NCBI GenBank assembly: GCA_025617745.1
Contig: CM046853.1
Location: 34,976,625 to 35,040,624, forward strand
DNA: 64,000 nucleotides
Reading direction: 5' to 3'
Origin: Heliocidaris erythrogramma
Lineage: Eukaryota > Echinodermata > Echinoidea > Camarodonta > Echinometridae
A program made the translations under genes and the position numbers. Under the pieces are notes generated by a model. That model was not told the DNA's origin. It worked only from the letters and a program-made list of their open reading frames with translations, and did not search any database. Each line of letters begins with the position of its first letter. The stretch's first letter is position 1. Of the stretch, positions 19,689 to 56,838 are shown one piece after another.

Positions 19689-25652
<5,964 letters not shown>

Positions 25653-33055: not shown

Positions 33056-33744
33056 TCATAAACTATATGCCATCATCAGATAGGCTTTTGGCACCAGACC
33101 AATTTTGCTATTCTTCTCCCCAACCCACCAACTAAAGGAGTCAAACTCCTTACTGATGATATGGACCAGGTCCCCTCTTCTAAACTCCAATTCATTCTCA
33201 TCATCAGGAGTACAGTCCCACATACCCATATATATGTTCTCATAATCCTCTTCCCACGGTTCCGGTTTGGGCGGCAAGGAAGGAGCAGGTGGCAAGCTCT
33301 CTGTTTTAACGGGTAACTTATCGGCGCTCGTCCTTTTCACGGGTGCTGGCTTCTCGTCCGACGCCCTTCTCGGGGGCTCCGGTTTGGGACGTTGAGATGT
33401 CGGAATGGCCGGAAGTTGCATTTTGGGTTGAGTCGGTGTTTTCGGTACCTCGGGAAGCGCACCGTGTCGAGCCGGTGGCGGTTTGGGCGCCACTTCTGGC
33501 TCTCTGTGACCGCTAGATACATCCTCGTAAACTTCGTCAGTGTCGATGATCTCCAGCTCAGTGTCATCGTAGATTTCACCCTGGTCACCAGATGGTGGAG
33601 CTTCAGGTGTTTTCTGAATCATTGTCTTGGGATAAGTGTCCACATCATCGTATGTCTCATCAAAGTCTTCAGCTATTGGAGATGGCGGTTTGTCGTTGGT
33701 AGGTGTGCGTGCCACAGATTCTGGGATAGACTTTGTTGATAAAT
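33056..33744 (-). CDS. SKAP2: SKAP last coding exon (Pro-rich linker + SH3)
   Basis: Acceptor TTAAACAG. Begins LSTKSIPESVARTPTNDK. Proline-rich stretches (APKPPPARHG, SLPPKPEPWEEDY), then SH3 to TGA at 33058-33056. Noticeably more GC-rich than its flanks. Confidence 0.95.
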
Positions 33745-36700
33745 CTGTTTAACAGAAGAATACAGAATCAGACAGATAACTTGAAATAATGAGGCAAAAT
33801 CAAGAAATTAATATGTTATTACTGAGTAAAGGCTAAACATCACATGTCATTTAGATAATGTGACAGTCTTATGACATGTGAAATATAATGGCATCAATCC
33901 AGTTTGAAATGAGCAAAATTCAAATAACTCTGAAACGTACATGTATATACGGATGTATGACATTTGCTCCTGCGACAATTGCCATGCCATGCTAATCCTA
34001 ACCCTAAACCTAACCCTACCCCTAACCCTAATCCTAATCTTCACATTGTCCTGAACAAAAAAACAAATCATGACCTTTTACCTTCAGGGATGCCACTTAG
34101 AATTGATAAAAAACTAGGAAAAATCATATAGAATGGGCCCTTCTGTACATAAAAAGTGGTTTTCTATGGCTAAAAATATGTTGAAAAAGTAGGAATTCCT
34201 ACTTTTGTCTGAAAAGTGGCATCCCTGTACCTTTGACCTTTCGAGATAATGGACTGTGGAGCAAATGTCGCAGGAGCAAATGTCAGCGCCTCGTATATAC
34301 ACACATGAATGTGTAGGTGACCATGGAAAAAGCTTGATGATTTTATGAAATGTCTCGCCATATTTCCTTTAAAAAAATATGCCACTAACAGAAAATGTGA
34401 TAGAAAATAAACAGTATCATGAAGCTCTGTGACATATAGCTGTAATGAGACAGTGGTACAGACACACCTAGCTTCCAAGGCATTTATTCTTATTTATCTA
34501 TCTCTATCATTTTGCTAATACATTAAAGGGCAATCCAACCTTGGTAATACGATGATTTGTGTGAAAGCAGAAAAATAAGAAAAACGGGATGGGGAAAGTT
34601 TGAAAGAAATCGGACAAGGAATAAAAAAGTTACAGATGTTTGAAAAATGAGATCACTACATCTATGCGAATCTCGAATTGGCAATTTGGTGAGTCGATTG
34701 TGACATACTTGTGGACAACTCTCCCGTTTGTCGTACACAAAAATATCATTAATTTGCGGTTTTCTCCGAAACGCCTTTACCCTCGGGGCAGTACTCAACG
34801 TATTTTGGAGATAGCATATTGTTATAGGTCCTCATGAAAGAAAAGATCCTACTGAGTAATACATTTTGAAACTAGATGAATCTTCGACCGCGCGTGGTCG
34901 GAATTTATGCCTCCGCCATCACCAGATTGGAAATGTATGGCATACATGTACACTCTAAAAAGGATTGGTCCAACAAAATTACAAATCTTTTCAATTAAAA
35001 AGCGCAGGAGACAGAAAATTTATTTCATTTCATTTTCAAATAAAAAACTTACCATTGATGACTTACAATCATCAAATACACCAAGGAAATAGATATTTGA
35101 TAGCAAATAGACCACTGTCCCCTTGAAATTTCTAAAATAGGTAGGCCTAGACTCCATACATCACGAACCATTTTTATGTATATAATGACCTCTATGACCT
35201 TTGAACTTTGACCTTGAGACCCTAAAATCTCATCAGTTCATCGTTCCTCACATATGCATACATGGGCCAAGTTAGAGGTTGATCTGTCAAACAGTTCTTC
35301 AGTTATTGCGAGAACTAACCATTTTTATGTACATAATTACCTCTGTGACCTTTGACCTTGAGACCCCAAAATCTAATCAGTTCATCGTCCCTCCCATATG
35401 AATACATGGGCCAACTTAGAAGCTGATCCGCCAAACGGTTCCTAAGTTATCACAAGAACGATCCATTTTTATGTATATAATGACCTCTATGACATTTGAA
35501 CTTTGATCTTGAGACCGTAAAATATAATCAGTTCATCGTCCCTCACATATGCATACATGGGCTAAGTTAAAAGCTGATCCGTCAAACAGTTCTGAAGTTA
35601 TTGCGAGAACGAACCATGTTTATGTACATAATGACCTCTGTGACCTTTGACCTTGAGACCCCAAAATCTAATCAGTTCATCGTCCCTCCCATATGAATAC
35701 ATGGGCCAAGTTAGCAGCTGATCTGCCAAACGGTTCCCAAGTTATCACAAGAACGAAAAGGGGGACGGACGGACGGACGGACGGACGACCCAAAAACATA
35801 ATGCCTCCGGCACCATCACCTACGGTGGGCGGAGGCATAAAAAGTAACATTTTAGTCATTTTGTGTGTTGGAGCGAACAGGGAGTTGTCCGCAACTACAT
35901 CACAGTGACATTACCTATCTGGCCAATTTGAAATTCCCATATGTATAGTGATTACAACTTTCAAAAATTCATAACTTTCTTATTGCTCGTCCGATTTCGT
36001 TCAAACTTTCACCAATCTGCTTCTCCGATTTTTCGTCTTTCTTTCAGAGCAACTTGTCATTAAGGTTGGAATTTCCCTTTAATATCTTAATTCTTCCATC
36101 TTCACATATTCTTTCATAGATCTACCCACCGACTGCAGGAACAACAGTGCTGGCCGAAGCTATAGCATCAATCCAGGCTTTCATTTCCTCTGTGCTTGAT
36201 GCTATGAACTGAACACACAAAAGAGAGAAAGAAAAAAAAAAGAGATAATCAGGTTGTTTAACACTTTAACCCTAATTGACCACATTTTGTGGTTTGGCTC
36301 ACTAACTTGATTCTGAGCTCTAAAAATTATACCAGACAAATGAGCAGAAAGAGCAAAAAAATGTGCACACACTATGTCAATTTTTGTTCCATGATCATAT
36401 TGCATTTGATACCAGGAATTTTGTAAACAAAGTTAAACCAATTAAATTGGCAACACATTGAAATTTTAAAAAATCATTGTTTTTTTTTAATCAAAATTGG
36501 CAATTTTTTCAACTTTTCAACAAATTTCCTTACCATATATATTGTTTTCAAAGACATTTACACTTTATTAGAACCATGTAGCACTAAAAGAAAAATATTA
36601 TTGCTGCCAATTTGAAGAACAGAATGTGATCAATTTAGCCCTTTAATAATTCCTGTCCTGAAAAGGTTAAGGGGAGGTTCAGTTCCGGGACAGGTGAAAA

Positions 36701-51352: not shown

Positions 51353-51989
51353 GATGCGTAACCCTGGAAACAGCAATGTATTTTCCCTGGCCCCTGCAGG
51401 CAATGTGGATAATGGCAGGACTGTTTTAATTTAGATGAGGGGCATAAAAATATCTCATAGAAATGCCCAATTTGGTCGGTTTCTTCTTCCGCTGGATTTC
51501 ATTTGCCTTCAAGTAGCTCATCTGTTTATATTATAATGCAAAGAGAATAATGCATTTCATTCTAAGGGGTAAACTACAAACAAAAACACTATTATCATGA
51601 CGTAGATTATCAAATCAAATAGGTTTTCATATATAGGAGGTGGATCTAGGACAGTTAGGAAGGGGAGGGAAAGACCTTTCCTTACCGTTTTTTTCCAGAT
51701 CCAAAAACGGGCAATCCGCATTATAAATCATTCACACTTTTATTCACATACAAACCGCTTATTTCATGCTGATCATGTTCTTATAATTCACGATATATAT
51801 ATTCTTAAGCTTGGCACTTTTATGTACCAGTTGTCAAAAAGGATTTGCCTGATATATTTACGCCAATTTTTCAAAGAAATGACAACATATTCCATATTTT
51901 TAATTTGTAAACAAATCTTTCGGCATATTACTCCCAGTGTTAAAGATCGTATGCTCGATCTGTAATGAAAAACACAAGTCAGAAAAAAT

Positions 51990-52063
51990 TGGAACCAGCG
52001 GGATTCGAACCTGTCATCTACTGCTTGCCGGGCAGCGACTTAACCACCAGGCTATTCTGGTTC
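51990..52063 (-). other. tRNA-like core, antisense unit
   Basis: Reverse complement of the 52408-52481 core. Same GAACCAG/CTGGTTC end pairing and a GGTTCGAATCC B box. Confidence 0.72.
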
Positions 52064-52407
52064 ACGGCCAAGTCACGACGAACTAGAATCAAATACCCAA
52101 GATCCTTTTCTTTCTGACTCATTAATATTCAAACGGTCCGCCGTAGACAATGGTTAGTAAACGAAGAAGCTTGACTGGGGAGGAATTTTTAATTTGTAAA
52201 CAAATCTTTCGGCATATTACTCCCAGTGTTAAAGATCGTATGCTCGATCTGTAATATGCCGAAAGATTTGTTTACAAATTAAAAATTCCTCCCCAGTCAA
52301 GCTTCTTCGTTTACTAACCATTGTCTACGGCGGACCGTTTGAATATTAATGAGTCAGAAAGAAAAGGATCTTGGGTATTTGATTCTAGTTCGTCGTGACT
52401 TGGCCGT

Positions 52408-52481
52408 GAACCAGAATAGCCTGGTGGTTAAGTCGCTGCCCGGCAAGCAGTAGATGACAGGTTCGAATCCCGCTGGTTCCA
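52408..52481 (+). other. tRNA-like core, sense unit
   Basis: GAACCAG ... CTGGTTC ends pair perfectly. A-box-like TAGCCTGGTGG; perfect B box GGTTCGAATCC. The T stem is imperfect and position 33 is C, so it is read as a SINE promoter, not a working tRNA gene. Confidence 0.72.
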
Positions 52482-53279
52482 ATTTTTTCTGACTTGTGTT
52501 TTTCATTACAGATCGAGCATACGATCTTTAACACTGGGAGTAATATGCCGAAAGATTTGTTTACAAATTAAAAATTCCTCCCCAGTCAAGCTTCTTCGTT
52601 TAATATTCCATATTATCCAACTCGTCACAGTCACTCGTTTCACCTTCCACGTACACGAACACTCTTTTCTCAAAAATGTTTCTTGTATACACCGGACCGA
52701 AATTCTGGAATGACTTGCCAGCACGGGACACAATTGAAAGCCCCTCTTTATTTTCATTTATAGGCGCAAGCTCAAACAGCTGTTGCTGTACTCTTATTCA
52801 GTTGTTACAGAGTAAGGACGCATGTTGAGCTATTATTTGTCATAATCATGAAGACAGATGAATCTTTCTTCTACCTCCTTGTTAATTTGTTCTAAATGAA
52901 CAGGCAGAGCGATTCTCCTTTGTTTTTTTTTTCTTATTTCTAAATACATCCTAACTTAGTGTTTTTTAAACTGGAGTCCCTGAATTGATTCTTAGTCTTG
53001 TCTCCTTTACTTTTTGACAATTGTTTTACGATTCAGCAAATCAGCCACCTCTTAGCTAGGCTTTTTGGCTGGTTTCCTCCAATGTCATTTCTCCTCAATT
53101 TTTGCTTTGTCTATTACGGAATTTCAATGGTTAAGTTGAGATTTACTATCCTATGTGTATATTTTCATCTATTTCTTTACTATGAATATAATATGTATTT
53201 AATTTGTATACTTTGTTATATTGTGAAATGAAAAATAAATAAACTAAACTAAATTTAATTGTGATTTTCTGCCAGTGAT

Positions 53280-54130: not shown

Positions 54131-56838
54131 GTAATTGATCAGTCCCACTCATAAATTTTCCTGTAGTAGGGTGATCATGGTTTTCAGTAATTCACTCCTC
54201 TGGCTCTACATCAGCAAGCAATGGTCATATTGACCATTAGCACTCCCGGGTACATTTCTGTAAAATAGTTGGTATTTTCTGTCGCATGTACTAAAGGTAT
54301 GGGGGGGGGGGGGAAATAAGATAAATATTTTAAATACTTGCTTTCAAATTCAGCCCTTAAAAATCTCACTCCTACCTCAAATGGCCGTTAGGAAGAACTT
54401 TTGATATTTACAGCAAAATCCAAAGTCAAAATCTTGTCCAAAACCGGAGAAATCCCCGCCGATTTGTTTCGCGATCGCGTGTTGTTTACAAACTGCCGAT
54501 GTCTTAGACTAAAATCGGCCAATATAATTTTTGTCCACGAAGAAACTCGGGATCGCAAGGGCACATCGATCTTTACGATCGCGCACACAGAAAATCGGAA
54601 CTTTTCCGTGTACGCCATAGGGACCGAATTTTTGAGGACAAAACTCTTTTGGGGAGATGTCAGCGCCCGCGGCGACCAGGAAATGTACACAATGACTCCG
54701 ATAGCTCGTTTCGCGAGAATCAACAGTAAATTGCGGATTTCATTTTTGTAAATATCTTTTCCAACATTGGTGAGTTGAATTTATTGTATTTCTTGGATAT
54801 TTTGGGGTCGGTTTTTGAAAATTAAATGCCGATTTTGAGTGAATATTGGTGACTTTTGTGCAGTGGTGTTTTAAAAAGATGAGGTGTATGACTGCCTACA
54901 TTATACACACGAAGTATAGGAATGTACCTATGAGTGACCATTAGAATCATATACATGTGTGTATACTGGGTATTGGGGATACAGATGTAATTTTGTTTGA
55001 AATTGATGTTTTTGTGGGCAAACTGATACTTAAAGGGAAATCCAACATTAATTGCAAGTTGCTCTGAAAGAAAGAGGAAAAATCAGAGAAGCAGATTGGT
55101 AAAAGTTTGAACGAAATCGGACAAGCAATAAGAAAGTTATGAATTTTTGAAAGTTGTAATCACTATATCTATGGGGATTTCAAATTGGCTCAATAGGAAA
55201 TGTCCCAGTGATCACTCATAGGTACATTCCTATACTTCGTGTGTATGTAGGCAGTCATACACCTCATCTTTTTAAAACACCACTGCACAAAAGTCACCAA
55301 TATTCACTCAAAATCGGCATTTAATTTTCAAAAACCGACCCCAAAATATCCAAGAAATACAATAAATTCAACTCACCAATGTTGGAAAAGATATTTACAA
55401 AAATGAAATCCGCAATTTACTGTTGATTCTCGCGAAACGAGCTATCGGAGTCATTGTGTACATTTCCTGGTCGCCGCGGGCGCTGACATCTCCCCAAAAG
55501 AGTTTTGTCCTCAAAAATTCGGTCCCTATGGCGTACACGGAAAAGTTCCGATTTTCTGTGTGCGCGATCGTAAAGATCGATGTGCCCTTGCGATCCCGAG
55601 TTTCTTCGTGGACAAAAATTATATTGGCCGATTTTAGTCTAAGACATCGGCAGTTTGTAAACAACACGCGATCGCGAAACAAATCGGCGGGGATTTCTCC
55701 GGTTTTGGACAAGATTTTGACTTTGGATTTTGCTGTAAATATCAAAAGTTCTTCCTAACGGCCATTTGAGGTAGGAGTGAGATTTTTAAGGGCTGAATTT
55801 GAAAGCAAGTATTTAAAATATTTATCTTATTTTCCCCCCCATACCTTTAGTACATGCGACAGAAAATACCAACTATTTTACAGAAATGTACCCGGGAGTG
55901 CCAGTGATGAAGTTGTGGACAACTCCCCCATTTGCTCCAACACACAAAATGACTAAAATGTCATTTTTTTCCAAATGTATTACTCAGTAAGACTTTTTTC
56001 TTTAATGAGGACCTATAACAATTATGCTATCTGCAATATATTTCGAGTACTGCCCCGAGGGTAAATGCGCTTCAGAGAAAACCGCAAATTAATGATATTT
56101 TTGTGTACGACAAACGGGAGAGTTGTCCACAAGAATGTCACAATCGACTCACCAAATTGCCAATTTGAGATTCGCATAGATGTAGTGATCTCATTTTTCA
56201 AACATCCATAACTTTCTTATTCCTTGTCCGATTTCTTTCAAACTTTGACCATCCTGTTTTTCTTATTTTTCTGCTTTCAGACAAATCAACTTATTACCAA
56301 GGTTGGATTGCCCTTTAAGTATCATTCTTTAGATTTTAAGTTATCAGTTCGTTAAGATACAAAATGTAGAAAGTTATAAAAACTTACATTTACAGCCCTC
56401 TTTTTGGTACTTGTTACCCACACCTCCATACGGATGACGACTGCTCTCAATAATGTTGCGCACTAGTGAGGCCGCTCTACATGGTTACGCACCGTAGATA
56501 CGTACGCAGAATGTTACACACACAAGCTATTCTACGAAGACCTGGAAGGGCCAAACTGACGACGTAAAAAAATAAAAAATATTACGTACGTACGTAGTAA
56601 TTATTACGTACGTACGTAATATTTTTTATTTTTTTACGTCGTCAGTTTGGCCCTTTCAGGTGTTCGTAGGAGATCGACGAACCCATCGCGCCGGTACTAC
56701 TACGAGCGCTGAGGGCTCCCTTCATCATAATCGTGAAAAATACAAACTGGATGCTGACGGGACAGTCTCGATAGCAGTTATCGACAAAAAGGACCCAAAA
56801 TTTCAGGAAACCCTCTTCAAAGGTCACAAAACAACCTG
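54043..56838 (+). CDS. Unrecognised gene, first two coding exons
   Basis: Exon 1, 54043-54130, starts ATG (MSFDEGHVNQAEFPEAAAAV ... REEYSA) and ends with donor GTAATT one base into a codon. Exon 2, 56670-56838, continues in phase (GDRRTHRAGTTTSAEGS ... KYKLDADGTVSIAVIDKKD ... GHKTTW) to donor GTAAGT inside the Trp codon. The acceptor at 56669 (TTCGTAG) is chosen by phase. An alternative TTTCAG at 56657 would add VFVG but does not join exon 1 in frame. No further exon was found before the right edge. The peptide is hydrophilic with no signal peptide, and LDADGTVSI only superficially resembles an EF-hand. Family unknown. Coding character is inferred from splice-site quality and an amino-acid composition unlike the surroundings. 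Confidence 0.55.
54241..54936 (+). mobile_element. hAT-like element, copy 1
   Basis: 8-bp target duplication ACCATTAG (54233-54240, 54937-54944). Ends CACTCCCGGGTACATT and, inverted, CACTCATAGGTACATT. CpG-rich core (about 54415-54749) with an open frame of about 116 codons that lacks an ATG. The core is bounded by TTTACAG and GTAAAT, so it looks like an exon. No transposase. Lies in intron 1 of the 54043 gene. Confidence 0.85.
55030..56318. mobile_element. Family A long-TIR MITE with nested hAT-like copy
   Basis: TTAAAGGGAAATCCAACATT at the left and AAGGTTGGATTGCCCTTTAA at the right. Interrupted cleanly by 55213-55900 and its target duplication. Confidence 0.82.
55213..55900 (-). mobile_element. 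hAT-like element, copy 2 (inverted)
   Basis: Nearly identical to 54241-54936 in opposite orientation, with its own 8-bp target duplication CCAGTGAT (55205-55212, 55901-55908). Differs by the G-run length and a 2-bp indel. It is nested in a family A MITE. The core open frame is preserved identically. Confidence 0.88.
56532..56669. repeat. 138-bp near-perfect palindrome at the exon 2 acceptor
   Basis: Arms of about 65 bp centred at 56600/56601: CTACGAAGACCTGGAAGGGC ... TACGTACGTACGTA and its inverse, with only two or three mismatches. The right arm ends in TTCGTAG, the acceptor used by exon 2. Confidence 0.9.
56670..56838 (+). CDS. Unrecognised gene, coding exon 2
   Basis: 169 bp, 55 full codons. 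The acceptor AG is the last base pair of the 56532-56669 palindrome. Strong donor CCTG|GTAAGT. Confidence 0.6.

Follow-up and report, generated by a model that had tools for sequence, protein, structure and literature searches.

A 704-bp head-to-head insertion of a 289-nt tRNA-bearing unit with the insertion anatomy of Penelope-like elements

What kind of element leaves two tRNA-like cores in opposite orientation, accompanied by LTR-like modules, within a single target-site duplication? The question is raised by positions 51899-52602 of the window, the 64,000-nt stretch of Heliocidaris erythrogramma DNA analyzed here. Self-comparison of the window shows a 704-bp insertion in which a 289-nt unit forms two arms placed head to head. 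The first-pass annotation had described two opposite cores in one insertion with a 12-bp duplication, a pair of identical 63-bp direct repeats, and the same module inverted at 52158-52220 and truncated at the left end. Each of these observations is confirmed, the duplication by ATATTCCATATT at both sides and the repeats by repeat comparison. The features are listed below, with A and B denoting the two recurrent outer end points of the unit.

51887-51898, no strand: left target-site duplication ATATTCCATATT, 12 bp; the AAC of the recurrent target motif lies just before it (51884-51886)
51899-52250, minus: antisense arm, which runs from point B (unit position ~33-36) on the outside to unit position 255 on the inside
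51899-51931, minus: inverted truncated module; ends at B, ~30 nt shorter than the module ending at A
51991-52063, minus: tRNA-like core, antisense copy
52158-52220, minus: inverted 63-nt module (repeat comparison)
52251-52602, plus: sense arm; unit positions 1-289, then 1-63; outer end at point A
52251-52255, no strand: GTAAT overlap (microhomology) at the head-to-head junction
52251-52313, plus: 63-nt pLTR-like module, 5' copy (repeat comparison)
52352-52494, plus: imperfect stem enclosing the tRNA-like core, predicted from pairing and not from covariation; 52352-52368 pairs with 52478-52494 (82%)
52408-52480, plus: tRNA-like core, sense copy, with a 7-bp acceptor stem and the B box GGTTCGAATCC
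52483-52488, plus: T6 run immediately 3' of the tRNA-like core
52540-52602, plus: 63-nt pLTR-like module, 3' copy; ends at A
52603-52614, no strand: right target-site duplication ATATTCCATATT, 12 bp (sequence and repeat comparison)

The arms at 51896-52220 and 52251-52575 measure 325 nt each and are 100% complementary across a spacer of 30 nt. Direct repeats with a spacing of 289 nt occur on both sides of the junction, at 51896-51966 and 52185-52255 (100%) and at 52251-52316 and 52540-52605 (98%, the first 63 nt identical). The insertion is two opposite stretches of one 289-nt sequence, read as if from a tandem or circular form, and not two cores with separate LTRs; the 63-nt module appears as a repeat because that part of the unit is read twice. 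The annotation's judgment that the locus does not fit a standard SINE, LTR element, or MITE is supported. Copies of the element consist of pieces of a single unit or of multimers of it, and a head-to-head arrangement is frequent. A MITE or other DNA transposon was considered and rejected, with identical terminal inverted repeats absent and the A and B outer ends lying ~30 nt apart in the unit.

A second, diverged copy is found in the window at 24012-24496. It is ~91 to 93% alike to the first copy over the longer blocks and has a 12-bp duplication of its own, AACATCTATATT.

24000-24011, no strand: left target-site duplication AACATCTATATT
24012-24167, minus: antisense arm, reaching from A on the outside into the tRNA-like core on the inside
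24157-24184, no strand: 14-nt tandem duplication at the junction
24178-24496, plus: sense arm of one 287-nt unit followed by ~30 nt more; its outer end lies at B
24497-24508, no strand: right target-site duplication AACATCTATATT

Because this second copy and further genomic copies share the design, the design of 51899-52602 is not a product of chance. With the first window copy as the query (subfamily 1), the search of the 1.064-Gb genome (26 contigs) gives 186 first-look candidates, 40 of which were scored and yielded 165 matches; with the second copy as the query (subfamily 2), the same genome gives 1904 first-look candidates, with 40 scored and 198 matches. From these lists, 35 and 39 loci, respectively, were fetched, together with 2 from a search with the core only. 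The monomer is 287 to 289 nt long with a GC content of 40 to 42%. The smallest copies have less than one unit per arm and the largest a run of more than 10 units, in direct or head-to-head arrangement. The genome search and copy classification suggested by the first-pass annotation bring up direct one-unit copies, tandem multimers, and inverted dimers alike; since multimers and inverted dimers are among the genomic copies, the objection that the family consists of simple monomers and that this locus is an assembly artifact fails.

Long arrays of the unit are seen in L032, L036, and L013, with 19, 12, and 7 full units, respectively, in the stretches examined. Since the flanks of L032 recur together with it, arrays sit within larger duplicated blocks. 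L020 and L026 represent one insertion in a duplicated flank and differ by one 289-nt unit and an internal deletion; this difference of one unit despite common flanks indicates that arrays and unit numbers also change after insertion.

Sense 3' outer ends lie mostly at A (unit positions 58 to 73) or at B (25 to 42), and the zones used in the counting script were 56 to 76 for A and 20 to 45 for B. Before counting, three stretches cut by a locus edge (the fourth of L032, L036, and the second of L076) and clusters of <80 nt were dropped. The resulting 82 insertions were reduced to 74 independent ones by merging eight rows with identical flanks (L019/L027, L020/L026, L032 three times, L048/L049/L051, L062/L067, and L064/L065). 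The core-only search revealed 12 new loci, 2 of which were read: L099 is cut by the locus edge, and L098, a complete B/A copy in which a duplication of ≥9 bp was searched for and not found, was added by hand to the classification of the 74 insertions as a copy without duplication. Fifty of the 74 are inverted copies, and these pair A with B in 42 cases, A with A in one (L011), and B with B in one (L074), with one or both ends elsewhere in 6; these numbers are subject to a sampling bias from queries that were themselves A/B dimers, strongest for subfamily 2 and probably less for subfamily 1. The direct copies show a 3' end at A in 15 cases, at B in 7, and elsewhere in 2. When inverted copies with both ends in the zones are divided by the presence of a duplication of ≥9 bp, those with one are A/B in 36 of 36 cases, and those in which none is detected comprise six A/B, one A/A, and one B/B copy. 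Within the 42 A/B pairs, A falls at ~61 to 72 and B at ~26 to 42, ~30 nt apart, as in a PLE-like tail defined by points 30 to 40 nt from each other.

The near-perfect long arms could suggest an assembly palindrome or a foldback DNA transposon. Such an origin can practically be dismissed in view of the 50 independent inverted copies, which differ in arm lengths and junctions and of which 37 carry a duplication, and of the outer ends, which are not the identical inverted termini that a DNA transposon would have.

Duplications of at least 9 bp, for which the flanks were checked as the first-pass annotation advised, flank 46 of the 74 insertions, and 33 of these are 12 or 13 bp long; the other 28 insertions show none. 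The 46 duplications are AT rich (78% A+T overall). Around the 33 duplications of 12 or 13 bp, AAC is found on the left in 15 cases and GTT on the right in 10, with at least one of them in 21, compared to a flank background of 1.7% for AAC and 1.6% for GTT (binomial p of 1.6e-18 and 9e-11, respectively). The target tends to the palindrome AAC-N12/13-GTT, with many sites matching only in part and the exact AAC or GTT on a given side present in half or fewer of the sites. A palindromic tendency is expected of a symmetric pair of nicks. The outer ends often have a few bases in common with the target.

Among the A/B copies of subfamily 1, 12 inner junctions overlap by 1 to 5 nt and 7 carry 1 to 22 unassigned bases. 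The junction between unit positions 255 and 1 is common to 51899-52602 and L005 and shows the 5-nt complementarity GTAAT/ATTAC. For these two copies, the mirror image could have arisen when one cDNA, on reaching unit position 1, snapped back (fold-back) onto this short sequence, as the first-pass annotation had envisaged for the template. As the origin of the family this is highly improbable: most inner junctions lie elsewhere, and a completed snap-back should give A/A copies, whereas A and B are observed. Of the earlier template proposal, the tandem or circular form read past one unit stands and accounts for the LTR-like modules; fold-back of one strand does not serve as the general mechanism, because the outer ends are two different recurrent points and fit priming from both target strands better.

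A comparison with the published anatomy of Penelope-like elements (PLEs), which is absent from the first-pass annotation, shows a match. PLEs occur in tandem or partial tandem, and their protein, a predicted dimer, cuts and extends both target strands (PMC11167929). Reverse transcription starts at two adjacent internal sites of the RNA, and the 30- to 40-bp tail is the stretch between them (PMC11167929). In a typical Penelope insert, the pLTRs in direct orientation have an inverted one next to them, which is 37 bp shorter in one case, and the duplications are 8 to 10 bp long (PMC3846280); the same report infers that pLTRs suffice to mobilize an unrelated gene in trans. The 289-nt family shows this insertion anatomy, with tandem and partial tandem units that yield pLTR-like repeats and an inverted partial repeat at one end, which in PLEs and here is ~30 to 37 nt shorter. 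The likeness to PLEs with an endonuclease (EN+, of the Penelope/Poseidon type) extends to the two adjacent end or start points, the AT-rich target, and the target duplications (PMC11167929 and PMC3846280). The truncated module at 51899-51931, ~30 nt shorter than the module ending at A, resembles a PLE tail as described in these two papers. Cutting and extension of both strands are demonstrated for PLEs and, for the 289-nt family, suggested by its anatomy. The differences concern the contents of the element: unlike EN+ PLEs, the family has a unit of only ~289 nt with neither a long open reading frame nor a hammerhead core, it carries a tRNA-like core, and its duplications are mostly 12 to 13 bp long versus the 8 to 10 bp given for the rotifer in PMC3846280.

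The locus is most probably one insertion of a noncoding, nonautonomous retroelement with a unit of ~289 nt that is mobilized in trans by a PLE; both the driver PLE and the form of the RNA, circle or multimer, are what we infer from the copies. In the proposed mechanism, a dimeric PLE protein would nick the two target strands ~12 bp apart. The 3' ends thus freed would serve as primers within the element RNA, one of them at A and the other at B, and reverse transcription from both would proceed upstream on an RNA that is multimeric or circular. Joining of the two cDNA ends by microhomology would give the head-to-head arms, and gap filling would create the target duplication. Since the start site did not differ between strands in the PLE assay (PMC11167929), the rule of one A end and one B end is not predicted by that study, which in 2024 described the later steps of PLE insertion as yet to be validated.

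No long open reading frame is present in the 289-nt unit. The longest stop-to-stop frame over three tandem units measures 68 amino acids, in contrast to the frame with reverse transcriptase and GIY-YIG domains that characterizes an autonomous PLE; the 289-nt element can therefore be at most a nonautonomous PLE derivative. Candidate drivers exist in the genome of the window, where at least 121 GIY-YIG matches were counted (150 of 1721 candidates scored), each of which is not necessarily a PLE. Pfam confirms a reverse transcriptase in 2 of the 12 GIY-YIG loci compared. L081, the sole PLE examined over its whole unit, contains one 667-amino-acid frame with GIY-YIG (25.3 bits, above the curated cutoff) and RVT_1 (29.1 bits, just below the cutoff of 29.6), and it shows a head-to-head inverted partial copy and a tandem spacing of 3679 nt. 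A comparison of the 289-nt unit with 17 pieces of the 12 GIY-YIG loci, only one of which covers a whole unit, yields no sequence match (E of <0.1), so that the case for a PLE as the driver comes from the anatomy. By this anatomy, the 289-nt element appears to work like a PLE, a statement about mechanism rather than descent.

Hammerhead motifs are reported in PLEs, where they lie in the pLTR. In the two window units, the hammerhead core CTGANGA occurs on neither strand, and no Rfam family reaches its gathering score in the window. The lack of both a long open reading frame and a hammerhead core means that the element is neither an autonomous PLE nor a retrozyme as defined. The same CTGANGA pattern picks out hammerhead-like cores in the GIY-YIG-bearing, Penelope-like loci L081, L082, L092, and L094, where stem II pairs by eye.

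The tRNA-like core, with its B box and T6 run, raises the alternative of a tRNA-derived SINE moved by a LINE. Twin priming produces inversions with microhomology, so the inverted copies would be ordinary products of that process. The 289-nt family shares with tRNA-derived SINEs its short length, noncoding nature, high copy number, and tRNA-like region with B box and T6. In contrast to them, its core lies inside the repeating unit rather than forming a 5' head, multimers and head-to-head arms occur, and inspection of the listed outer ends by eye reveals no LINE-type tail, either of poly(A) or of simple repeats. Both outer ends are recurrent positions of the element, the inverted end recurring at the same two points, and the tandem multimers and the two-sided target motif with a stagger of 12 to 13 bp also disagree with a LINE-driven origin. 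Transcription by polymerase III should stop at the T6 run, whereas the part of the unit downstream of this run is retained. Taken with these features, a SINE mobilized by a LINE is very unlikely.

ARAGORN calls no tRNA in the core, nor does Rfam at gathering in the window. The best tRNA model match, tRNA-Sec, reaches 19.4 bits (E value of 0.55), where the gathering score is 47. The B box GGTTCGAATCC is little changed across 44 aligned copies, although the second window copy deviates from this sequence. A comparison of the two window units gives 97.3% similarity in the core (71 of 73 positions) and 82.9% in the module (58 of 70 columns); in this one pair of copies, the difference would agree with a role of the core in mobility. 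As to covariation in the tRNA domain, a double change is seen in 0 of 48 predicted pairs among the 44 copies, which are too alike for this result to speak for or against the cloverleaf. The single-strand fold of the sense arm gives a z score of -2.89, with 1 of 100 shuffles equally good, and is not decisive. The core would act as a cis signal for binding, processing, or transcription rather than as a coding gene. Permissive Rfam matches near the junction (VR-RNA, Yfr17, snoR125, and miRNA families) all fall below gathering and are taken as products of the palindrome. A scan of IMG/VR with a 37-nt core pattern gives 0 matches.

Within the PLE explanation, the template may be narrowed down further. 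Animal retrozymes are small, noncoding, nonautonomous, low-GC elements with tandem monomers of ~300 nt and target duplications of >4 bp, as described in PMC7229834. The 289-nt family resembles these non-LTR retrozymes in all of these properties, with its 287- to 289-nt low-GC monomers in tandem dimers to multimers, and differs from them in lacking a hammerhead ribozyme and in carrying a tRNA-like core. A further difference is the head-to-head inserts, the word "inverted" appearing 0 times in the main text of that paper. The shared properties argue for a retrozyme-like element with a small circular RNA as its sole template, copied by rolling-circle reverse transcription, a version of the PLE explanation and not exclusive of it. 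Such a single circle offers one A site and one B site, which would explain why A/A and B/B copies are nearly excluded.

A comparison of the full units inside single insertions bears on this template. In 14 multi-unit insertions of subfamily 1 (L032, L036, L023, L015, and L027 left out and L026 kept), full units of one insertion differ by a mean of 0.0075, compared to 0.0188 in shuffles, and 0 of 2000 shuffles is as low. All full units are identical in 4 of the 14 (W1, L009, L025, and L031), and in W1 and L009 this identity extends across both arms. Five insertions (L009, L031, L033, L035, and L041) have one or two private variants common to all of their own units and present in at most 1 of 33 other insertions. 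These findings favor a circle, and other observations weigh against it: the remaining 9 multi-unit insertions show no such private variant, the units of L011, L013, L016, L029, and L041 differ by 1.0 to 1.8% on average, and the hammerhead core and any Rfam family are lacking as given above. The differences within an insertion could stem from age or from a heterogeneous source. Among the A/B copies of subfamily 1, 14 of 20 sense arms ending at A stop no more than 10 nt from unit position 1, and 7 of 20 stop exactly there; a linear multimer may have its 5' end at this position, or the position may be a strong stop, and the former would speak against a circle. A strictly circular template is thus possible, if somewhat doubtful.

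An unrelated tRNA-bearing unit of 407 nt that looks like the 289-nt family is located near GIY-YIG matches, at L081:468-1108, L085:1041-1618, and L088:999-1213. It scores 65.5 bits with the tRNA model in L085, has a T6 run, and shows TA repeats at its edges. The genome gives 2148 first-look candidates for this family, 39 of which were scored and yielded 174 matches; among the matches listed are arrays of up to ~10 units and head-to-head pairs (C11:24564914-24569947 and C4:42036654-42038781). The sense 3' ends at the three loci fall at unit position ~1 (L081 left and L085) or ~46 to 50 (L088 and L081 right, the latter blurred by TA repeats). The 407-nt unit has no hammerhead core, and its only resemblance to the 289-nt unit is weak and spans 36 nt at the tRNA (E of 0.4).

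The two families permit a broader proposal, put forward tentatively and with odds only a little short of even: a class of tRNA-bearing short elements, with at least two unrelated families of many copies in one animal genome, may use PLE rather than LINE machinery, with a protein dimer that would prime both strands on one small circular RNA, at A and at B, so that the genome would keep a record of PLE-type insertion. For the questions of how PLEs insert and why tails and inverted pLTRs remain, a very short element with ~2000 first-look candidates, the usual ends of which lie only at A or B, offers a statistical record of both priming events, the target, and the joining of the cDNAs. The family further suggests that PLEs can serve short tRNA-bearing elements in the way that LINEs serve SINEs, with no need for the hammerhead ribozyme by which retrozymes are defined. 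Among the matches listed from open-licence papers, a scope outside which most subscription journals fall, none describes nonautonomous or SINE-like users of PLEs.

Two further features of the window are of separate interest. Positions 54230-55911 hold another large inverted repeat, with 596-nt arms that are 100% complementary and 343 nt apart and with outer arms of 78 nt (95%). A flanking duplication was searched for at this repeat and none was found; it is possibly a foldback element. On the minus strand, 33056-33748 contains an exon of a SKAP-like gene (src kinase-associated phosphoprotein, with SH3), 62% identical to its best relative.
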